64,000 nucleotides of DNA from a virus. This document shows positions 13,691-42,954 of the stretch, one piece after another. The stretch's first letter is position 1, and each line of letters opens with the position of its first letter. The notes under the pieces were generated by a model that was given only the letters and a program-made list of their open reading frames with translations, did no database searches and had not been told where the DNA came from. The stretch lies in the IMG/VR virus record IMGVR_UViG_3300045135_002615, positions 62,001 to 126,000 of that record. One strand, written 5' to 3'. The position numbers and the translations under genes are program-made.

Positions 13691-14524
13691 TCAGATGACC
13701 TTCACCTTGTAACCCTTACGCATGAGATACTTAACAACACGCTCCTTAAGAGCCTTCATGTGGGTTTTATGCTGGGTCAAGCTGTCTTTGTAGATGTTTC
13801 CGGTGACTGAGATCGTTTGCTTAGAAAGCATGACCCACAGTATAGATGGCGGATAACTAAACGCCTTGTTCGCCAATATGAACCCAAAATGATTATTTGC
13901 ATCTGAGAGCTCAAGCACACCTCCCTGTAGGGCTTTTTTTGCATGAAGATCATCAATAGCCTTATAAATAGCACCCTCTTGACCCAAGGAGGGCTGCCAA
14001 CGTGAGCTAGGGTCAAACCCGTTGCGTACCCTGACCATATAAGGGGAGGACAACTTTGAGACAGTCTTCTCATAAGGCGAAGGACCAAAGAAACCTGCGG
14101 TCTTTTTGACTGAAGAGACACGGAGGGCTTTCTTTAGGGTGAATGCCATGTCTTTGAAAGAGTTAAGGGACGCCTCTTTGGATACCTTAAACTCATATTT
14201 TTCCATGAGCCTTATAACTGCGACAGATAAGTTGCCTCGATTTAACCAAACTGCCCCATTTGTATATTCAATGCTATAGGGCAGTCCCTCGTTAACCGTT
14301 GATTGAGGAGCAACCTTAATAAGGTACCTTATTGCGTCCACTCCCCTTAGCCCCCTTTTATCAATGTCCTTATCTGGACTAGGGACGTAAATGACCTCAT
14401 ATACAGGTAGGTCACCAAGCGTGCTCTCAATATTCTCTTTTCTTCCAAAGATCGCCTCTTTCTCAAGCTCTGCGATACGAGTTTCAAGTTGGGCGATTTT
14501 CTGACTTGCTGTTAAGTGTCTCAT
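13691..14524 (-). CDS. tagged protein with shared MRHLTASQ N-terminus (copy 1)
   Basis: This 277-residue protein begins MRHLTASQKIAQLE followed by RIAELEKEAIFG, the N-terminal tag also found at 19662, 21007 and 42954. The tag has a heptad-like spacing of Ile and Leu and would form a short helix or coiled coil. The remainder (about 25-277) is a mixed alpha/beta protein I do not recognise, with many Lys and Arg at the C-terminus. The start at 14524 is preferred because the other tag genes start at the same residue and AAGGAG lies upstream. I infer that the tag is a targeting or cleaved propeptide, so the body may be packaged in the head and injected. Confidence 0.6.
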   Translation of the reverse strand: MRHLTASQKIAQLETRIAELEKEAIFGRKENIESTLGDLPVYEVIYVPSPDKDIDKRGLRGVDAIRYLIKVAPQSTVNEGLPYSIEYTNGAVWLNRGNLSVAVIRLMEKYEFKVSKEASLNSFKDMAFTLKKALRVSSVKKTAGFFGPSPYEKTVSKLSSPYMVRVRNGFDPSSRWQPSLGQEGAIYKAIDDLHAKKALQGGVLELSDANNHFGFILANKAFSYPPSILWVMLSKQTISVTGNIYKDSLTQHKTHMKALKERVVKYLMRKGYKVKVI

Positions 14525-14583
14525 GTGTACTCCTTCTATGTCTGTACCATGTGTAAACAAGAAGATAAAAGGAGTACAACATT
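14525..14583. promoter_or_regulatory. divergent start region with 10-bp inverted repeat
   Basis: TGTACTCCTT (from 14525) and AAGGAGTACA (ending about 14580) form a perfect inverted repeat around 36 bases. Each arm includes the Shine-Dalgarno site of one of the two divergent genes, so part of the symmetry is expected. The match extends beyond the AAGGAG core into TACA, which is more than two ribosome sites require, and may also be an operator. Confidence 0.35.
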
Positions 14584-16681: not shown

Positions 16682-19285
16682 ATGAACTTCTTAGACGCAT
16701 TGACACAAGTCAATCGACCCAACATCAGCCCTAAGCCTTGGATGGCAGAGTGCGAGCTTATTTTCGGAACAAGAGACAACCTCGACAAGTGCATTGACGA
16801 GTGTATCAACTCTCCTACAGGCTTCTATGGTCTTGACACCGAGACTACAGGTCTTGACACGCGAGTATTCAACGGAAAGACAAGAGACACCATCGTGGGC
16901 ATCTGTCTCGCCCCGACCAAAGACAAGGGCTACTACTTCCCTGTCGCCCATAAAGAGGGAGTAGAGCACAACATTCCATGGAGGATCATGGGTCCTGCCC
17001 TTGAGCGTCTGTTTGATGTGTCTGTTAAGGCTATCCCTATCTTCCACAACAGCTCTTTTGATATGGAGGTGTTGGAGTTCAACGGATTCACCAAGCAACG
17101 TCTAGGTGAGAAGCGTTGGGACTCTCAGGCAGGGTGGCACGACACCTATATCTTGCAGTATCTCCTCAACCCTCGTGAGAAGGGCGGGCGTGGTCTTAAG
17201 CACTTGACGAACGTCCACCTCAAGAGGGAGATGATCGAGCTCTATGAGTTGTTTGGCATGGATAAGAAGGGTAGTAACTTGAACTACTCTCAACTAGACC
17301 CCTCATGGGAGCCTTGTGTGTGGTACGCCGCGAGTGATGCCATGTGTACGCTTGGGCTCTTTGAGATCCTCTATGCCGAGTATACAAGTAAGCCTGAGCA
17401 TACCAACTTCATCTATGCGTTGGAGAAGTCCTGTGCTTCCGCTACGCGGTGGATGCACCGCAACAGGGTCTACATTGATAGGGACACCGCCCTGAGCTAT
17501 GCCCAATCGGGTCAGAAGCTGTGGTTTGACTCTCTCGTAGAGGTCTACGAGGGTGCGTCAGAGATCCTTGGGCGTAATATTATGCCCAACTATGTACGCA
17601 TCTTGAAGGGAGAGCTGAAGGGTATGAACCGCTTCAATCCCGATGAGGTCGAGGGTATGAGCTACAAGGTACGCCTCGATGAAGCTCGTAAAGAGGCATT
17701 ACGCTTACACCCTGACCCTACAGAGGTGCTCACTAAGTCTGTCCCATACATTGACCGAGATGCAGGTACGGAGAGTGTTGAGTTCCCCTTAGTCTATGAC
17801 ATCATGTCACCACAGCAGTTCGGTCTGCTTTTGAGAGAGTTGGGTGTACCTGGCTTGAAGGCATCTGAGAAGTCGGGTCAAGTGGTCACGTCTAAAGATG
17901 TGATTGAAGTCGTGATCAAAGAGGCGAGTGAGACTTTCCCCTTCATGAAGAAGGTTAAGACCTTCCGTGAGCTAGGTAAGGCTATGGGTCAATACCTCAT
18001 CCCCTTCGTGGAGGATGTGGGTCCCGATGGGACACTCAAGCCCAAGTTTGATCAGTTCGCTGCCGATACGGGTCGCTTCTCATGTAAGACAAACAGCAAG
18101 CCTTGGAAGGTGCTTGATGGTGGCTGTCGTGTACCCTTTCAAGGTATTCCTGCGACCTATGATCCTAACAAGCCCGAAGCTATCGCCAAGATGCGTAAGT
18201 GTGTAGCTGTTAGAAACCCTGACTATTGGCTCGCGGCGATTGACTACGCAGGTGTAGAGTTAAGGCTCGTCACCAACTTGAGCGGTGAACCTCTATGGGA
18301 AGATGCCTTCTTCCGTTGTTCGGAGTGTGGTAAGGATTACCCTAAAGACATTCAAGAGGATGGATTTGCGGAAGCCCCTCCTGCGATCTGCTCATGTGGG
18401 TCGGATAAGATCGGTGATCTCCACACGATCACGGCGGTAGCCTTTTATGGAGAGGGAGCTAAGAAGCAAGACGATTGGAAGAAGCTCCGTGGTAACGGCA
18501 AGTCCTGTAACTTTGCTCTCTCTTATGGAGGTACGGGCAAGGCGGTACAGAGGTCTATTAAGGGTTGCTCAGCAGAGGAGGGTGAGGAGAAGTACAAGCT
18601 CTTTACCAAGACGTACAAGACGTTGACTGCGTGGTGGGCTCAGCAACACGCTTTTGGGCGTAAGCATGGTTTTGTAAAGACGGGCTTAGGTAGGGTTCAG
18701 CCCCTCCCTGACATCAACAACAAGAAGGAGTTTGGTCTCCGTTCTAAAGATGAGCGTAAGGCAGTTAATGGACCTGTACAGGGTACGAGTGCCGACATTA
18801 CTAAGCTCGCCATGAGTCTGATCTACAAAGCGGTCAAGGAGCGTGGTTGGGAAAACAAGCTCATGATGATCTTGACGGTACACGATGAGATTGTGTTTGA
18901 GATTCACAAGGACATCTTGAAGGAGGGTATTGAGCTACTCTGTGAGTTGATGACCCGTAATGAGGCGGTCAAGCGTATGAAGTGGCCTGTACCTTTGCTC
19001 GTAGACGTAGAGCTAGGTAAGGATTGGACAGTCCCTTACGACCTCAAAGAGATCAGAGAGGGCGAGGGGGATCCTGAGCTAGTCAAAATCTTTGGTGGTG
19101 TAAAGCCTTCGGAGAAGCCTGTTGAGGAGGAAGCTCCTAAGCAGGAGAAGCCGAAGGTGGACACACTTGAGATTGACGAGTTGACTGCGGATAGTGCGGT
19201 CAAGGTGGCGATGTGGGTTAGGGAGAGAGAGGGAGAGTGGGACGTGATCTATAGTGGGAGATCAGTCAAGGCACTACTCGTTTAA
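16682..19285 (+). CDS. polA: family A DNA polymerase with 3'-5' exonuclease and zinc-ribbon insert
   Basis: The 867-residue protein has exonuclease motifs DTETTGLDT (about 52), HNSSFDMEVLEFNG (about 121) and YAASDAMCTL (about 215). The polymerase motifs are motif A, DYAGVELRLVTN (about 520), motif B, KSCNFALSYGG (about 607), and motif C, VHDEIVFEI (about 734). There is no 5'-3' exonuclease domain, as is common in phage PolA. Between motifs A and B lies an insert with CSECGKDYP and ICSCGSDK (about 545-575), four cysteines in a zinc-ribbon pattern that ordinary PolA lacks. The C-terminal 60 residues are an acidic Pro/Glu/Lys linker plus a small domain. It is the replicative polymerase by inference. 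The ATG follows a CGGAG site. Confidence 0.97.
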   Translation: MNFLDALTQVNRPNISPKPWMAECELIFGTRDNLDKCIDECINSPTGFYGLDTETTGLDTRVFNGKTRDTIVGICLAPTKDKGYYFPVAHKEGVEHNIPWRIMGPALERLFDVSVKAIPIFHNSSFDMEVLEFNGFTKQRLGEKRWDSQAGWHDTYILQYLLNPREKGGRGLKHLTNVHLKREMIELYELFGMDKKGSNLNYSQLDPSWEPCVWYAASDAMCTLGLFEILYAEYTSKPEHTNFIYALEKSCASATRWMHRNRVYIDRDTALSYAQSGQKLWFDSLVEVYEGASEILGRNIMPNYVRILKGELKGMNRFNPDEVEGMSYKVRLDEARKEALRLHPDPTEVLTKSVPYIDRDAGTESVEFPLVYDIMSPQQFGLLLRELGVPGLKASEKSGQVVTSKDVIEVVIKEASETFPFMKKVKTFRELGKAMGQYLIPFVEDVGPDGTLKPKFDQFAADTGRFSCKTNSKPWKVLDGGCRVPFQGIPATYDPNKPEAIAKMRKCVAVRNPDYWLAAIDYAGVELRLVTNLSGEPLWEDAFFRCSECGKDYPKDIQEDGFAEAPPAICSCGSDKIGDLHTITAVAFYGEGAKKQDDWKKLRGNGKSCNFALSYGGTGKAVQRSIKGCSAEEGEEKYKLFTKTYKTLTAWWAQQHAFGRKHGFVKTGLGRVQPLPDINNKKEFGLRSKDERKAVNGPVQGTSADITKLAMSLIYKAVKERGWENKLMMILTVHDEIVFEIHKDILKEGIELLCELMTRNEAVKRMKWPVPLLVDVELGKDWTVPYDLKEIREGEGDPELVKIFGGVKPSEKPVEEEAPKQEKPKVDTLEIDELTADSAVKVAMWVREREGEWDVIYSGRSVKALLV

Positions 19286-19662
19286 ATGAAAATCCCATCC
19301 AACCTCCTGACGTTGGTTTTGTTTTGGAGTTCACGTTTTAACTCACGAGCAACTCTCTTAGGATTTGAGGCATAAGTGAGTTGCAACCAATCAACCCTGA
19401 TTGAAAATGAAGGGTCATTCCTACCAATGACTTCAACTTGCATATCAGCTTCTCTCCCCTGACTGTCAGTCAGCTCATATTTGACGTAGTAACCTCCGTG
19501 GGAATAAGAGTTCTTAAGGTTTATCTGCTCAACCTTATAACCTTCGTCCTCAAACACCTTCTCAATATCCTTTAAATATCTTAGGGGGTGTGCTTTTTTC
19601 TCAAGACGAGCGATACGGGATTCGAGGTGGGCGATTTTCTGACTGGCTGTTAGGTGTCTCAT
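19282..19662 (-). CDS. tagged protein with shared MRHLTASQ N-terminus (copy 2)
   Basis: This 126-residue protein begins MRHLTASQKIAHLE and RIARLEKKA, the same tag as at 14524, 21007 and 42954. The body is a small alpha/beta domain of about 100 residues (DIEKVFEDEGYKVEQINL; YVKYELTDSQG; FSIRVDWLQL) that I do not recognise. The start at 19662 rather than 19668 is chosen because AAAGGAGG abuts the earlier ATG and stands six bases from this one, and the tag genes all start at MRHLT. Its stop overlaps that of the convergent polymerase gene. It may be a packaged effector, by inference from the tag. Confidence 0.6.
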   Translation of the reverse strand: MRHLTASQKIAHLESRIARLEKKAHPLRYLKDIEKVFEDEGYKVEQINLKNSYSHGGYYVKYELTDSQGREADMQVEVIGRNDPSFSIRVDWLQLTYASNPKRVARELKRELQNKTNVRRLDGIFI

Positions 19663-19728
19663 GAACATCCTCCTTTAGATTGGTTATGACTTGGGTACGA
19701 TAAAAGAACTATCAAAGGAGTGGACAAC

Positions 19729-20925: not shown

Positions 20926-21006
20926 ATGGTCGTTTAAGGATGGCTATGCAGTGATAGTTACTTTATATCTCCACCTCAACCAACACAACCCATAAAGGAG
21001 ATGTCC

Positions 21007-21891
21007 ATGAGACACCTAACAGCTAGTCAGAAAATCGCTCAGCTTGAAAACCGTATCGCCCACCTAGAGAAGCAAGCCTTCCTAGAAGGCATCCAACAAA
21101 AAGTCTCAGCTTGGATTGAAGCCAAGCTACCCTATAAGAGAGAAGTGAAGAAGGCAGTTCTTTCTGAGTACTCTATCAGGGACATGAAGAGTGCTGAAAA
21201 AGCAGCTAAATATGTGGTGAGGGATCTTAAAGATCCTCATCACATGACCGCCCTCAGCATGATTGTGAAGTCCGAGTCTACGTTCAAGGGTCGAGTGGAG
21301 ATGGCTCTCAATATTAAGAATCACCCTGAGATGTTTGAGGGGCGTACAGCGTCAGCGTTTGCTGTTGCCGCGTTGAGCGTAACAGCGTTACTTGTGGGTG
21401 TTGTTTGGACCTCGATTAAGCAGGTGTTCCGCCTTGCGTCACACAATAAGCAAGGCGGAATTCCCGTGATCGTGGGTGTCATCATCTCCATTTTGGGAGG
21501 TGTCGCTTTTCATGAGCTTCTTCTGACTCCTGAGAAAAAAACAAAAGAGATTGGGCACGCCATCTCAAGGGGTTTGATCGGTGAGCTCCCCGGAATTAAA
21601 TCAATAGAGAAGGTCTCAGAGAACATGGATGAGGTGGTCATAAAACTTGAGATTGCAGACACAGCAATGAAATACCCTACCGACATAGCTACTTTTTATC
21701 TCACCTTTGATACAACAAAGGATTATGTTTTCGTTGAAAACAGCTACATCAACGGGATAGCAGGGACATATGAAAATGTTTTAAAGAAGCTAGAGTCTCC
21801 AAGAGTTGAGGCTGAGTTGAGAGAAAAAATTAAGATTTGGGAAGATGACGATATTTTTCTTGGGCGAGATGACGATGACATGTCCATATAG
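21007..21891 (+). CDS. tagged membrane protein with shared MRHLTASQ N-terminus (copy 3)
   Basis: The 294-residue protein begins MRHLTASQKIAQLE and RIAHLEKQAF. After a charged helical region come two membrane segments at about 115-137 (AFAVAALSVTALLVGVVW) and 152-174 (GIPVIVGVIISILGGVAF). A soluble C-terminal domain ends in an acidic tail (WEDDDIF, DDDDMSI). AAAGGAG touches an upstream in-frame ATG and stands six bases from the ATG at 21007, matching the start of the other tag genes. The combination of tag and membrane segments suggests a protein carried in the virion and delivered to the host membrane, an inference to be tested. Confidence 0.65.
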   Translation: MRHLTASQKIAQLENRIAHLEKQAFLEGIQQKVSAWIEAKLPYKREVKKAVLSEYSIRDMKSAEKAAKYVVRDLKDPHHMTALSMIVKSESTFKGRVEMALNIKNHPEMFEGRTASAFAVAALSVTALLVGVVWTSIKQVFRLASHNKQGGIPVIVGVIISILGGVAFHELLLTPEKKTKEIGHAISRGLIGELPGIKSIEKVSENMDEVVIKLEIADTAMKYPTDIATFYLTFDTTKDYVFVENSYINGIAGTYENVLKKLESPRVEAELREKIKIWEDDDIFLGRDDDDMSI

Positions 21892-21900
21892 TATGAGAAC

Positions 21901-22449
21901 TTAATAGGTCGCCTTGTCCAGTGAGTCCTCTAGACTCTTCATTGAGAACCCGTACTCTCCATACAAGCGATGGAGCTCCATCACACCTGCTTCAGTAGGT
22001 GCAACTAGGTGTGATGAGTCCATGCCAAACACATGAGCTCTCACAAAGGTGTTATCTTTTTGGCAGATGTCCATTAAGGTACACCATCCTTGTTGGGCAG
22101 GTTGTACATCCCAATGGTTCACTTCATAGAGTACACCCTGTACTACATTTTCAAAGCGGCTTGGTGTGATTGAAGCCACCCCCACCTTATTAGAGGGGTC
22201 TGTAAAGATCAGACGATAACCTCGGATACTGCCTTGACCTTTCACCCTTGCAGAGGGGTACTTAGCTATCATTGTAGTGGGGTTCATATCGAGTCCGTAT
22301 GCGAAGATAAGTGCTTTCATAGTTGTATTCTTTCGTATGTGTTCGCCCGTCCAACCTGAACAGGTTTGGTTGGGTCTTGTAAGGCATTGAGCCCCCCTCG
22401 ACTTTGAAAGCTGCCTACCGCAGTATTTACAGACGTAGTCGGGCTCCAT
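21901..22449 (-). CDS. zinc-ribbon plus gamma-glutamylcyclotransferase-fold protein
   Basis: This encodes 182 residues from the ATG at 22449. Four cysteines (C7, C10, C22, C30: CKYCG, QCLTRPNQTC) form a zinc-ribbon-like head. From residue 44 the sequence MKALIFAYGLDM has the FAYG glycine loop of the gamma-glutamylcyclotransferase/AIG2-like fold, with later YEVNHWDV and HRLYGEYGF segments. These enzymes release 5-oxoproline from gamma-glutamyl compounds, but the fold also has non-enzymatic members, and I cannot place the catalytic Glu with certainty. The ATG overlaps the FmdB-like stop (TAATG). An internal start at 22320 (MKALIF) would give the domain alone and is an alternative product. Confidence 0.65.
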   Translation of the reverse strand: MEPDYVCKYCGRQLSKSRGAQCLTRPNQTCSGWTGEHIRKNTTMKALIFAYGLDMNPTTMIAKYPSARVKGQGSIRGYRLIFTDPSNKVGVASITPSRFENVVQGVLYEVNHWDVQPAQQGWCTLMDICQKDNTFVRAHVFGMDSSHLVAPTEAGVMELHRLYGEYGFSMKSLEDSLDKATY

Positions 22450-22628
22450 TAATACCCGCCTGTATTGAACCAACCAGGACCTTTAAGGACGAAGCTCGTC
22501 CCACCGACTTGTCTCTCGGTGGGACCTTCACACTTCTTGCATGGAGGGAGAGGGTCTTCAAACTTCTGCATCTTAGTTGTGACTTCTTTACATTCAGGGT
22601 TTTTACACTCGAAGTTATAGATAGGCAT
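22449..22628 (-). CDS. FmdB-family zinc-ribbon protein
   Basis: This 59-residue protein begins MPIYNFECKN and has C8, C13, C30 and C33 in the FmdB zinc-ribbon arrangement, then the family ending TSFVLKGPGWF. FmdB-like proteins are short putative regulators found in bacteria and many phages; their molecular role is mostly unknown. It sits three bases after the gene at 22632 and overlaps the next gene by one base, so it belongs to a three-gene minus-strand unit. The following gene also starts with a zinc ribbon. It is below the length usually listed by automatic ORF calling. Confidence 0.8.
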   Translation of the reverse strand: MPIYNFECKNPECKEVTTKMQKFEDPLPPCKKCEGPTERQVGGTSFVLKGPGWFNTGGY

Positions 22629-22961: not shown

Positions 22962-24422
22962 ATGGCAAGAACTGACTCCGAGAAAAGAGACATCTACAAG
23001 AAGTGGCATGAGCTGATCAACATGAGTGAAACGGCTCTTAAGTCATGGGCAGAAGATGATGACAGGCTTCTTGCGTCTATCAATAGGCAAGAGGCAAAGT
23101 CTGAAGGGGGTATCCAATCGGGCTATGATTCCTTCCATCGCATAAAAAGGCGTAAAAAAAAGCCTTTTAAGGAATGGTCGGACTCGGATTTCGATAATGC
23201 TAATCAAGAGATAGGCTTCAACTCACGGATGCTAGGAGGCACCCCTGGGAAACCTGTGTCCAATTCAGGGCGATCTAAATGGGAGATCAGTCTTAGGAAT
23301 TGGGGACACGATCCTTCGTTGAAGTCAAGCCCCGCACATAATAAATGGAAGTCATGGAAGAAGAAGCAAGAGGAAACCAACATGAAGAAGTCACACCAAG
23401 TCCGCGTCCTGAAGAGGGCGATTATAGCCACGAGAAACCGCCCTGACCTAGCCCCACAGAGGGAGGAGTACATCCGCCTTTTGAAAGCTCATAATAGCAG
23501 GGTAGCTTCGGGTGACCCTAATAAAGAGTTAGAGAAGCCAGCTAAGAAGCTTGGTTTGTCTAGGAAAGATATGTACGAGGCATGGCTTCCACTTTTAAAA
23601 AAAGTATCGGGTCTTATCAAGCCTGAGTATCAGGTTCAGATTTCCAAGTTCATTTCGAGTTATGGTCTTTTGGGATTCTTCAATGGGCTCTACAAGGACA
23701 CCATGAAGGGTACAATCAAGCCCTCAAATCCCGTTGAAAAATTCCTTGCCTCGATCTTCAAAGGCTTGAGTATCTCAAAGACCGCCGAGATGACCATCCG
23801 TGTCCTCCAAGCGGAGTCCTTGGATGATATTGCCGAGGTCGGTAGAGCACAAGGTCGGGATATGTTGGGAGAGTGGGGTCTAGGAGACGCTAAACTCAAA
23901 AAGCGTATGTATGAGAATAAAGTGGGACGTAACGTCACTTGGGAGGAGTTCGCTGAACAAGTCGAAGATAAAAGGTTGTACACCATGTTGGTGAAGTATC
24001 TAACCTATATTGAGGATTCTAAAATCTTTGGGGTTAAGCTCTTGTTCACCATTGTCAAAGGTGCAGGTGTTGCTTGGTTATTAGGAGGCACTCTCGCAGG
24101 GATTACTTTCGGCGTGGTTGCATTCCTTAAGTTCATTTTTGCTTTGGCGGTGTGCTTCGGTTGGCGTAATGCAGCTCAGTTTCTTCGTAAGACAGGGATT
24201 ATGCTCACCGCACTCGCCCCTTCAGTGCTCATAGACCTTGGGAGGGTCTTAGGACTCCCGTTTGATATATTCCATGGCATTGTAAACAAAGTGAGTCAAG
24301 CCACAGATGCCGTCGTTAACTTCTTCTCGAAGAAGGCGGTACAAGAAATCCGTATGCTACTTAGAGAGGACATGGACTTCCGCAGGGAGTTCTTGATCAC
24401 TCAAAAACGCAGACACATCTAA
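22962..24422 (+). CDS. two-domain protein: phage-type N-domain and C-terminal membrane region
   Basis: The 486-residue protein has an N-terminal region (1-140) with conserved-looking blocks: YKKWHELINMSETAL, a KRRKKK basic stretch, GFNSRMLGG and SLRNWGHDPS. I believe I have seen this pattern in other phage proteins of unknown function but cannot name it. A central helical part follows (about 140-355), including HNSRVASGD. About 360-410 is hydrophobic (LLFTIVKGAGVAWLLGG, FGVVAFLKFIFALAVCF), predicting two membrane segments, followed by an amphipathic C-terminus. GGAG lies eight bases before the ATG. A short palindrome, TGAGTTGAACTCA, occurs upstream. Possibly an ejected membrane protein. Confidence 0.55.
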   Translation: MARTDSEKRDIYKKWHELINMSETALKSWAEDDDRLLASINRQEAKSEGGIQSGYDSFHRIKRRKKKPFKEWSDSDFDNANQEIGFNSRMLGGTPGKPVSNSGRSKWEISLRNWGHDPSLKSSPAHNKWKSWKKKQEETNMKKSHQVRVLKRAIIATRNRPDLAPQREEYIRLLKAHNSRVASGDPNKELEKPAKKLGLSRKDMYEAWLPLLKKVSGLIKPEYQVQISKFISSYGLLGFFNGLYKDTMKGTIKPSNPVEKFLASIFKGLSISKTAEMTIRVLQAESLDDIAEVGRAQGRDMLGEWGLGDAKLKKRMYENKVGRNVTWEEFAEQVEDKRLYTMLVKYLTYIEDSKIFGVKLLFTIVKGAGVAWLLGGTLAGITFGVVAFLKFIFALAVCFGWRNAAQFLRKTGIMLTALAPSVLIDLGRVLGLPFDIFHGIVNKVSQATDAVVNFFSKKAVQEIRMLLREDMDFRREFLITQKRRHI

Positions 24423-24440: not shown

Positions 24441-24471
24441 ACCCCTCTCGGAGCACCAATCTGAGAGGGGT
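24441..24471 (+). promoter_or_regulatory. 9-bp hairpin covering the ribosome site of the Ntn/GGCT gene
   Basis: ACCCCTCTC (24441-24449) and GAGAGGGGT (24463-24471) pair perfectly with a 13-base loop. The 3' arm holds the AGAGG ribosome site ten bases before the ATG at 24479. No U-tract follows, so the element looks more like a translation control or processing hairpin than a terminator, although it does lie between two genes. Confidence 0.55.
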
Positions 24472-24478
24472 CTGTTAT

Positions 24479-25879
24479 ATGGATAAGAAAGCATGTGTCA
24501 TAGGGGTCACCCATATCAATGGGAAGAAGTACATCTTTAAAAACAGGGACAGGAACTATATCCCTGAGATTAAAGTCTATCATGTGCTGAGCGAGAATGG
24601 TACAGAGATACTCTACTTCAAAGACGAGATATCAGGGTGGGTTGAAGGGATCAATGAGCACGGCATCGTAGTAGCTAATGCCGCCCTCATGGTCTTGGAA
24701 GATGAAAAGGCGGGGCTTAAGAAGGGTAAGAAGGTTAGATTCTCTAAAGATGCTCACCGTATGATCTATGCACTCGACACCAACTCATTGATGGAAGCCC
24801 TACATAGGGTCACCCACTTCAAAACAGGAGTCAAGGGTCATACAACAGTGTCCAACGCTGAACACACCTACGTCATCGAGCGTACAAGTAAACATGATCC
24901 AAAGGTCGAGCTCGTCAATGAACCCCACTTCGTAAGAACCAATCATGGCGTCCACTACCCAGATGCAGGTTATCAAGTAGGTGCTGATAAAGAGTCCTCA
25001 CACACCCGTTATGAGACCGCTATGTCGGTTATGGAGTCAAGGAATAGAAGCCCTTACGACATCGTCAAGAAGTTCTTTAACAAGAGATTGAAAGATGTAC
25101 CCAATCCCAATAATGTAGTCCGTAAGACGGACAATATGTTCACCTCTAATCAGTTCATATTTGAACCCGCTAAGAGGAGGATGAATATGATATTGATCGA
25201 GGACGATTGCGTATTCCTCGGATACGAAAAGCACTTCTCTAAACCCGCTAAGTGCTCCTTCTCTGTGCGTAAAGTCAAGCCTGGTAAAGACGGGAAAGCC
25301 ATGCTTGAAAAGATTGAAGCAAAGCCCATCCAAGTAACACTCCCACCCCCTAATGAGAACGTACTTAGAGTCTTTGCGTATGGCTCGCTCATGTATGAGC
25401 CTGAGCTACCTGATCTAATCTGCGGTCAGAAGGTCTGTCACTTGAACGGTATGAGGCGTGTCTTTAATATTTACTCTCCATCAAGGAAGCATTCAGTCTT
25501 GGGTACTTGCCCTGGCGGTGCCATGCAGGGACTACTCCTTGAGTACCCTATCGAGAACGCTGAAGAAGTCATCAAGGCTCTTGATAAGCGTGAAGGGTTT
25601 AAGGAAGGTGACTCAAACAGCCTATACTTGAGAGAAGTTCGTAGAGCTTACTCCACCGAACACCCTCAAGGTGTTCCTTGTATCGTATACATCACTAATG
25701 AAGAACATGACTCATATGTTGGTCCTCGTGACGATCTGATTCAAGAGACAGTAGAATCTGAAGACCTGCAAGGATACCTAAGAGGTTGTTCAAGGTCGAT
25801 GACAAGCCATGGTGTTGAGGACAAGTACCTTGATCGAATCATACTCAAACTGAAGGAAGACCATAAGGTAAGGATATGA
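24479..25879 (+). CDS. Ntn-hydrolase-like domain fused to gamma-glutamylcyclotransferase domain
   Basis: The 466 residues contain two enzymatic folds. The N-terminal part (1-about 285) resembles the acyl-transferase/penicillin acylase-like Ntn hydrolases: a Cys at position 6 as possible nucleophile, NRDR at 22-25, and the GWVEGINEHGIVVANAAL stretch at about 55-72. If C6 is the nucleophile, five residues must be removed first. The C-terminal part (about 297-466) begins VFAYGSLMYEPELP, the glycine loop of ChaC/gamma-glutamylcyclotransferases, with LDKREGF at about 367 supplying the likely catalytic Glu. Both folds act on amide bonds of small peptides or amines, so a two-step hydrolysis of a gamma-glutamyl compound is plausible; the substrate is unknown. 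Its stop overlaps the next start (ATGA). Confidence 0.75.
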   Translation: MDKKACVIGVTHINGKKYIFKNRDRNYIPEIKVYHVLSENGTEILYFKDEISGWVEGINEHGIVVANAALMVLEDEKAGLKKGKKVRFSKDAHRMIYALDTNSLMEALHRVTHFKTGVKGHTTVSNAEHTYVIERTSKHDPKVELVNEPHFVRTNHGVHYPDAGYQVGADKESSHTRYETAMSVMESRNRSPYDIVKKFFNKRLKDVPNPNNVVRKTDNMFTSNQFIFEPAKRRMNMILIEDDCVFLGYEKHFSKPAKCSFSVRKVKPGKDGKAMLEKIEAKPIQVTLPPPNENVLRVFAYGSLMYEPELPDLICGQKVCHLNGMRRVFNIYSPSRKHSVLGTCPGGAMQGLLLEYPIENAEEVIKALDKREGFKEGDSNSLYLREVRRAYSTEHPQGVPCIVYITNEEHDSYVGPRDDLIQETVESEDLQGYLRGCSRSMTSHGVEDKYLDRIILKLKEDHKVRI

Positions 25880-41697: not shown

Positions 41698-42954
41698 TTA
41701 GTATCTTCTTCTTAGGCGAGAATCCTGACGGCTGAACCCTTTAGGGAGGGTAGCACCTGTGAGATCAGCTCCACTGAGGTCTGCTCCACTGAGGCCAGCG
41801 TGACTGAGGCCAGCGTGACTGAGGTCTGCTCCACTGATTTTAGCGTATTCAAGGTCAGCGTGACTGAGGTTAGCATCATTGAGTTTAGCCCCATTGAGTT
41901 CAGCACCATTGAGTTTAGCCCCATTGAGTTCAGCCCCATCGAGTTTAGCCCCTTTGAGGTTAGCTTCACTGAGGTTAGCTTCAATGAGCTGAGCATCATA
42001 GAGTTTAGCTTTAGTGAGGTTAGCACCATTGAGATAAGCTCCTGTGAGATCAGCATAACTGAGGTCAGCCCCACTGAGGTCAGCTCCTGCGAGTTTAGCT
42101 TTAGTGAGGTTAGACCCCATGAGGTAAGCCTTAGTGAGCTTAGCCTTAGTGAGGTTCGCCCCTGTGAGTTTAAACCTAACGAGGTTAGTTCCACTGAGGT
42201 CAGCGTGACTGAGGTTCGCCCCATTGAGTTCAGCCTCATAGAGTTTAGCCCCTGTGAGTTTAGCCCCTGTGAGATCAGCATCTGTGAGATCAGCCCCCTC
42301 AAGGTTGGCTCCACTGAGGTCAGCCTTACTGAGATCTGCATCTGTGAGGTCAGCCTTTCTGAGATCAGCACCCTTGAGGTTAGCGTTATTGAGCTCAGCA
42401 TCTGTGAGATCAGCTTCAGTGAGGTTAGCCCCACTGAGATCAGCCTTACTGAGCTTAGCTCCTATTAGGTCAGCCCCTCTGAGATCAGCATCTGTGAGAT
42501 CAGCCTTACTGAGATCAGCGTTATTGAGATAAGCATCTGTGAGATCAGCCCCTCTGAGATCAGCACCCTTGAGGTTAGCGTTATTGAGCTCAGCGACAGT
42601 GAGATCTGCATCAGTGAGATCTGCATCAGTGAGGTCAGCCTTTGTGAGGTTAGCCCCTCTGAGGTTAGCCCCTCTGAGCTTAGCCCCAATGAGCTTAGCC
42701 CCAATGAGATCAGCCTTACTGAGCTCAGCCTCACTGAGATCAGTCCAACTGAGATCAACACCACTGAGATCAGTCCAACTGAGGTCAAGACCACTGAGGT
42801 CTTGACCTGAGAAGTCTTTCTCCCCCTTAGCGAGTGCCTCCACTAGGGACTCCCTAGTGTGCTTAAGATTGCCCTTTAGGGAGGCTTGCTTCTCTAGATG
42901 AGAGATACGGTTTTCGATTTGAGCGATTTTTTGACTGGTTGTTAAGTGTCTCAT
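41698..42954 (-). CDS. pentapeptide-repeat protein with MRHLTTSQ tag (copy 4)
   Basis: The 418 residues start MRHLTTSQKIAQIE and RISHLEKQAS, the shared tag. From about residue 45 to 405 they consist of roughly 70 pentapeptide repeats of the form A-(D/N)-L-x-x (ADLTDADLSKADL and similar), then a basic tail ending RLRRRY. Pentapeptide repeats fold into a square beta-helix. Some members (Qnr, MfpA) mimic DNA and inhibit gyrase; others are of unknown role. At this length the helix would be about 17 coils, longer than Qnr. The repeats are also near-identical at DNA level, so the gene is prone to expansion and contraction. Combination with the tag suggests a virion-carried protein. Confidence 0.85.
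   Translation of the reverse strand: MRHLTTSQKIAQIENRISHLEKQASLKGNLKHTRESLVEALAKGEKDFSGQDLSGLDLSWTDLSGVDLSWTDLSEAELSKADLIGAKLIGAKLRGANLRGANLTKADLTDADLTDADLTVAELNNANLKGADLRGADLTDAYLNNADLSKADLTDADLRGADLIGAKLSKADLSGANLTEADLTDAELNNANLKGADLRKADLTDADLSKADLSGANLEGADLTDADLTGAKLTGAKLYEAELNGANLSHADLSGTNLVRFKLTGANLTKAKLTKAYLMGSNLTKAKLAGADLSGADLSYADLTGAYLNGANLTKAKLYDAQLIEANLSEANLKGAKLDGAELNGAKLNGAELNGAKLNDANLSHADLEYAKISGADLSHAGLSHAGLSGADLSGADLTGATLPKGFSRQDSRLRRRY

Follow-up and report, generated by a model that had tools for sequence, protein, structure and literature searches.

Why should the predicted catalytic cysteine of a phage enzyme lie five residues inside the chain? The gene that raises this question is found in a stretch of 64,000 nucleotides, here called the window, which corresponds to positions 62001-126000 of a viral record of 296,642 bp (G000). 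The genes that G000 carries (baseplate, terminase, portal, DNA polymerase and ribonucleotide reductase) identify it as a jumbo myovirus. The gene in question is predicted to encode an Ntn amidase or acyltransferase of the AAT/penicillin-acylase type, joined at its C-terminal side to a gamma-glutamyl-cyclotransferase (GGCT). The nucleophile of an Ntn-hydrolase has to be the first residue of the mature chain, so the five residues MDKKA that precede Cys6 would need to be removed for it to play this role. We infer from the sequence that they are, and that Cys6 is N-terminal in the mature window protein. The features concerned are as follows.

24479-25879 (+): AAT-GGCT fusion protein, a single unbroken ORF with an ATG start, 466 aa (Pfam, AlphaFold, Foldseek)
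24479-24493 (+): candidate propeptide MDKKA (aa 1-5), with K-K-A just before Cys6; K-x-[AS] occurs throughout the clade
24494-25330 (+): AAT-type Ntn-hydrolase domain, predicted nucleophile Cys6 at 24494-24496 (Pfam, invariant residues, Foldseek)
25355-25876 (+): ChaC/GGCT-type cyclotransferase domain, YGSL at aa 301-304, Glu372 at 25592-25594 (Pfam, alignment, Foldseek)

A Shine-Dalgarno-like stretch, GAGAGGGG, lies 8 nt upstream of the ATG. The same stretch forms the 3' arm of an 8-bp hairpin (CCCCTCTC...GAGAGGGG; window 24442-24470) between the upstream stop codon and the ATG, so that the hairpin could be a terminator or could hide the ribosome site.

Two domains of known fold

A preliminary description of the window had proposed the fusion of an Ntn-hydrolase-like and a GGCT-like domain, with C6 as candidate nucleophile and a catalytic Glu near residue 371, and had suggested structure prediction. 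Both domains indeed have family matches above the curated Pfam cut-offs: AAT (PF03417) at residues 15-239 (E = 3e-10; 40.6 bits against a cut-off of 23.2) and, in the C-terminal part, both ChaC (PF04752) at residues 298-418 (E = 1.7e-7) and GGACT (PF06094; E = 7.6e-6). The AlphaFold model of the full-length protein (pLDDT 84.9, pTM 0.73) agrees. When compared with the PDB using Foldseek, its N-terminal part matches isopenicillin-N acyltransferase (2x1c/2x1e; E 2e-8, with 2x1c at 2.4e-8) as well as bile-salt hydrolases and penicillin V acylases, while its C-terminal part matches human ChaC2 (6ky1; E 4e-9) and GGCT (3cry). A sequence search of the PDB with the fusion protein gave colicin-immunity matches only, which were dismissed as chance.

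Cys6 is invariant in every aligned homologue, which upholds its candidacy as nucleophile. Along with it K21, D24, N67, N155 and R215 are invariant in an alignment of 32 sequences; these we take to be the expected catalytic partners, their roles being transferred from choloylglycine hydrolases. The Glu of the second domain proves to be Glu372, within ALDKREGF, and is conserved in all aligned fusions except that of locus L104, where it is Arg. The predicted activity of this domain may be the release of 5-oxoproline from a gamma-glutamyl substrate, the substrates of GGCT, GGACT and ChaC being indistinguishable at the level of identity seen. Host N-acyl or gamma-glutamyl amides are possible substrates of the protein, and the data favour neither. 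As enzymes, the two domains add new members to families already known. The novelty lies in their being fused and in the phage-type processing motif beside the nucleophile. The preliminary description overlooked that Cys6 lies five residues inside the chain, and it is there that the more surprising biology is found.

Distribution of the family and of the fusion

Searches with the fusion protein as a single sequence matched only two Chryseobacterium phages, and no relative was found among viral contigs in this way. An AAT member is carried by Chryseobacterium phages MA9V-1 and MA9V-2 (the latter being locus L002), and the family was opened only by an alignment with the Chryseobacterium phage protein, with which the viral contigs were then scanned. 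This yielded 202 AAT relatives, of which 80 were kept. Nearly all consist of the AAT domain only and are around 270 aa long. Fusions to GGCT are seen in the window and at L004/L005, L006, L007/L008, L009-L012, L104 and L108-L111, representing about seven phage lineages, and this recurrence argues against a chance join. At L013 an unrelated C-terminal domain is found where GGCT would be. Taken together with the loss of the catalytic Glu in L104, this suggests that the AAT and GGCT activities are not obligately coupled. The literature that we searched contained no description of the fusion in phages.

A pattern scan of the genomes of 84,980 bacterial and archaeal species with the AAT alignment found no relative, nor did a tblastn search of plasmids, and the idea of a cellular origin or cellular relatives of the phage AAT subfamily was dropped. 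Since the species scan relies on short patterns, distant cellular AAT proteins could still exist.

A motif of the head-protease type before the nucleophile

Propeptides were compared across 33 homologue clusters built at 85% identity. Glu directly precedes the Cys in 27 of the 33, and in all 27 the P3 residue is Leu, Ile or Phe. Otherwise the propeptides differ in both sequence and length, from 4 to more than 300 aa; examples are MKKLINE, MAKQLLDE, MIKLRNLLAELNE, MKLKDLIPKPINE and MNNLFDKIMLGE. As a background value, [LIF]xE stands before at most 4.4% of Cys residues in neighbouring ORFs, even with the AAT ORFs counted in.

The head protease of phage T4, gp21, cuts after L/I-x-E (PMC9026906). 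Among its substrates are the T4 internal proteins, whose N-terminal capsid-targeting propeptides of 10-19 aa it removes; foreign proteins joined to such propeptides get packaged and delivered (PMC9026906). Of the 21 records whose AAT has the [LIF]xE|C form, 11 contain a Peptidase_S77 (gp21) match (E 3e-8 to 8e-35). Among the IMG/VR records longer than 100 kb, six of eight are positive, as is MA9V-2 at a weaker score. The records that lack a match are mostly short contigs, although two large ones, G015 and G024, also gave none. Around residue 60, at a gp23-like site, the T4-type major capsid proteins (MCPs) of these loci read LVTE|A, LLDE|A or LVQE|A. N-termini resembling those of the AAT proteins are found on other proteins too (MKKLKDLLKE|S, MIKLKSLLNE|G, MNLKKLITE|S and MKKDILINE), and the MNLKKLITE protein adjoins an AAT protein whose propeptide is MIKLRNLLAELNE.

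Plain Met-Cys members also occur (L015, L042 and L111), and two of the clusters have this form. For these an aminopeptidase would suffice and no head protease is needed. At the other extreme, the AAT domain of L037, L056 and L082 is the last part of a longer, polyprotein-like ORF, in which [LI]xE|C again forms the junction. In MA9V-2, a 998-aa protein adjoining the AAT gene (L002:92-3088) contains around 18 repeats of [hydrophobic]NE[SAN] that resemble scattered head-protease sites, the AAT protein's own site being INE|C.

The clade of the window protein

The propeptide of the window protein ends in K-K-A, not L/I-x-E. All six clusters or rows of its clade (window, L004, L007, L009, L013 and L104) have K-x-[AS] before the Cys, in N-termini of the form M-x-K-x-[AS] (MDKKA, MKKQS, MIKQS, MDKNA, MKKDA, MNKNA, MYKRS). 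In an unrooted tree these rows form one clade (100/100), joined with twelve LxE rows at 99/88. Searches of G000 for S77 and S78 proteases found neither. Its head protease was found instead through PHROGs (phrog_18299, E = 6e-15; G000:213912-215351). The MCP of G000 (phrog_2522; G000:217796-218671) contains GRAKLA|AS in its N-terminus. This head protease and MCP belong to families other than those of the LxE phages, and Tunturi_5, Bacillus phage G and mycobacteriophages have relatives of them.

Is K-x-[AS] part of a wider pattern in these phages? Within residues 2-36 of 278 G000 proteins, [KR]xA is counted 169 times, compared with 81 ± 7.9 in shuffles. The enrichment has z = 11.4, 9.5 and 7.5 in three window-clade genomes, G000, G001 (the genome of L004) and G002 (that of L008), as against -1.1, -0.6 and -0.2 in three LxE genomes. 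A peak at position 5, comprising 14, 28 and 9 proteins in the respective window-clade genomes, falls at the exact point where the AAT Cys would be uncovered.

Much of the enrichment comes from an N-terminal tag, though without the tag family the G000 count is still 124 compared with 69 ± 7.6. The tag reads MRHLTASQKIAQLExRIAxLEKxA in G000 and MRRSASEIIRNLExRIARLERQA in G001. In the latter genome, as MRR[ST]ASE[IV]I..LE.R[IV]A.LE[KR]QA, it is carried by around 25 unrelated proteins, with [KR]xA ends at residues 5, 17 and 23. Its coiled part is seen in 19, 29 and 25 proteins of G000, G001 and G002, respectively, and in none of the LxE genomes. Tag-bearing loci outside the window are L168-L186 (G001) and L138-L153 (G002); those inside it are listed here.

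13691-14560 (-): tag-bearing protein
19282-19668 (-): tag-bearing protein
21001-21891 (+): possible head-cargo protein whose N-terminus bears the phage-wide tag MSMRHLTASQKIAQLENRIAHLEKQA
41698-42954 (-): tag-bearing protein

The Cys of the AAT-GGCT protein stands at the very position at which a cut would release the first segment of a tag of this kind. The shared tag may serve to target proteins to the capsid and offer a series of cleavage sites; if it does act as such a signal, the head cargo of window-clade phages could be listed from sequence alone.

The idea that [KR]xA is the general motif of this head-protease family was not supported. Tunturi_5, phage G and LR745208 have the window-type head protease and MCP, yet [KR]xA is not enriched in them (z 1.3-1.5). 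We therefore read it as a trait of this clade and as no more than a candidate motif of that protease family. Furthermore, [LIF]xE[AGSC] is N-terminally enriched in Tunturi_5 (z 3.4) and LR745208 (z 4.7), so that an N-terminal excess of LxE does not by itself mark phages with S77.

Proposed activation during head maturation and its alternatives

The best explanation, which we consider about as probable as all others combined, is that the gene encodes a bifunctional enzyme precursor whose Cys would be uncovered by the head-maturation protease on packaged molecules that are then delivered. A short AAT precursor would enter the prohead, where the protease would remove the propeptide at maturation so that the Cys becomes residue 1. 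The mature amidase, which in the window's clade has its C-terminal cyclotransferase attached, would travel in the capsid, enter the host with the DNA and there act at an early stage on an N-acyl or gamma-glutamyl amide. Cleavage, packaging and delivery are all predictions from sequence. In the wider family the head protease is the most likely cutter because the residues before the Cys vary with the processing motif of the carrier phage: [LI]xE where the protease is T4-gp21-like, and K-x-[AS] in the window's clade, with its other head protease and its N-terminal [KR]xA tag on many proteins. We are slightly more hesitant about the general form of the proposal, namely that these are phage-specific Ntn amidases, packaged inactive, exposed at the Cys by head proteases of at least two specificities ([LI]xE and K-x-[AS]) and delivered.

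For the T4-like relatives, capsid-packaged precursors uncovered during head maturation are fairly well supported, mainly by the conservation of P3-P1 before the Cys, the known specificity of gp21 and the co-occurrence of S77. For the window protein the same reading is an extrapolation, and weaker, since [KR]xA is not enriched in the relatives that share its head-protease family. The strongest part of the analysis is that the nucleophile is set at a predicted head-protease site, something outside the reading of the preliminary description. In the literature we found no virion proteome of an AAT-carrying phage, the MA9V-1 paper giving SDS-PAGE only.

If the proposal is true, the proteolysis that matures the capsid also activates a cargo enzyme. 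The cut that frees the cargo from the scaffold would also make the active site, so that the amidase would be silent in the producing cell and active in the particle. It would also give a function to more than 200 unannotated phage proteins and point to a wide group of injected enzymes.

The main rival is autocleavage. The protein could be an ordinary cytoplasmic amidase/cyclotransferase, produced in the course of infection, which loses its propeptide by itself or to host aminopeptidases, with [LI]xE and KxA incidental, and this we regard as a serious possibility if, on balance, a doubtful one. Ntn-hydrolases often shed their own propeptides, autoprocessing being the rule for penicillin acylases and AAT, and two of the Foldseek matches, 2x1c and 2iwm, are precursor structures. 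The Met-Cys forms need no head protease, and five residues ending in a small P1 (Ala/Ser), as in the window's clade, would suit autocleavage. However, autocleavage would not require [LIF]xE, yet P3 and P1 are kept in every LxE-type cluster while the remaining propeptide varies, and where LxE gives way to KxA the head protease changes too.

Catabolism of glutathione or other gamma-glutamyl compounds during early takeover, with GGCT degrading glutathione like ChaC and the amidase removing another acyl group, seems unlikely as the principal role, although it is compatible with activation during head maturation and does not exclude it. ChaC is the best match by both Pfam and fold, and G000 also encodes a glutamine synthetase, but GGCT is missing from most AAT relatives, lost its Glu in L104, is replaced by another domain in L013 and has substrates inseparable from those of GGACT and ChaC at this identity. 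Least likely, and by our estimate very improbable, is that the Ntn fold lacks catalytic activity or stays uncleaved and serves for binding only: Cys6 is indeed not N-terminal as translated, but the Cys and its partners are invariant over highly diverged homologues and the Met-Cys forms show the family evolving towards an exposed Cys.

Neighbouring and other genes

The genes around the fusion had suggested a multi-gene gamma-glutamyl pathway, built on a ParB/Srx-like enzyme downstream and a second cyclotransferase-fold protein upstream.

21901-22473 (-): GGCT-like 190-aa protein with a Cys4 (zinc-ribbon-like) head (phrog_2520, E = 2e-5; alignment)
22962-24422 (+): 486-aa protein with a hydrophobic C-terminal region; homologue upstream of the fusion in L004, L006, L013 and L111
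25876-26388 (+): ParB/Srx-like protein with a DGxHR motif, overlapping the fusion gene by 4 nt (phrog_17560)

The family assignment and Cys4 head of the 190-aa protein stand, but Gln is aligned at the position of the catalytic Glu. For the ParB/Srx-like protein, the overlap and the conserved DGxHR motif are clear, and its best fold matches (sulfiredoxin, ParB-N and SbnI) are compatible but sub-significant (E about 0.09). Its gene comes directly after the fusion gene in the window and at L004, L006 and L111, lies two genes on in L013 and does not follow it in L008, L010 or L104. With one protein lacking the Glu and the other linked in some lineages only, the pathway is not upheld; L104 and L013, without the GGCT Glu and GGCT respectively, count further against it. 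The conserved neighbours, that is the protein with the hydrophobic C-terminus and the ParB/Srx-like protein, may share the cargo role or the regulation of the fusion.

Elsewhere in the phage genome, the glutamine synthetase gene (L096:3606-4610, G000:243606-244610; PF00120 E 7e-16, PF03951 E 4e-13) has a partial homologue in G001 (L169:3-305). The gene at L092:15141-15968 (-) specifies the catalytic domain of an adenylate/guanylate cyclase (PF00211, E 1e-7). A 997-aa protein at L091:10947-13937 (-), listed with L088:1897-4794, appears by eye to be intein-interrupted with a Dps/ferritin-like C-terminus. Two arrays of short paralogues starting WTEIV.GKR.A, with at least 8 copies, lie at opposite ends of the record (G000:24933-27421 and 280688-282942).

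Comparison with known systems

With AAT/isopenicillin-N acyltransferase, penicillin V acylase and choloylglycine hydrolase the window protein shares the fold, the Pfam AAT family and the invariant Cys with its partners. It differs in being only around 13% identical to 2x1c and fused to GGCT, and in belonging to a subfamily found only in phages, for which the pattern scan and the plasmid search gave no cellular relative and whose propeptides end in phage-type processing motifs. The C-terminal domain has the YGSL motif, catalytic Glu and fold of ChaC, GGCT and GGACT, but is here the second domain of a fusion and lacks the Glu in L104. In butirosin synthesis, acyl transfer followed by gamma-glutamyl cyclotransfer is carried out by BtrH and BtrG; these are separate proteins, and the parallel is a lead only.

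Among phage systems, ejection proteins of the jumbo phages phiKZ and SPN3US have N-terminal propeptides cut at S/A-x-E (PMC9026906, PMC7411985), a different motif, and no AAT-fold enzyme is described among them in the literature searched. The T4 internal proteins (IPI-III and Alt) resemble the AAT-only relatives, which likewise have a short L/I-x-E propeptide, with S77 in 11 of 21 of their records. The window member departs from them in its K-K-A and in a genome without S77, and for the whole family the cut would, unlike that in T4, also create an active site.
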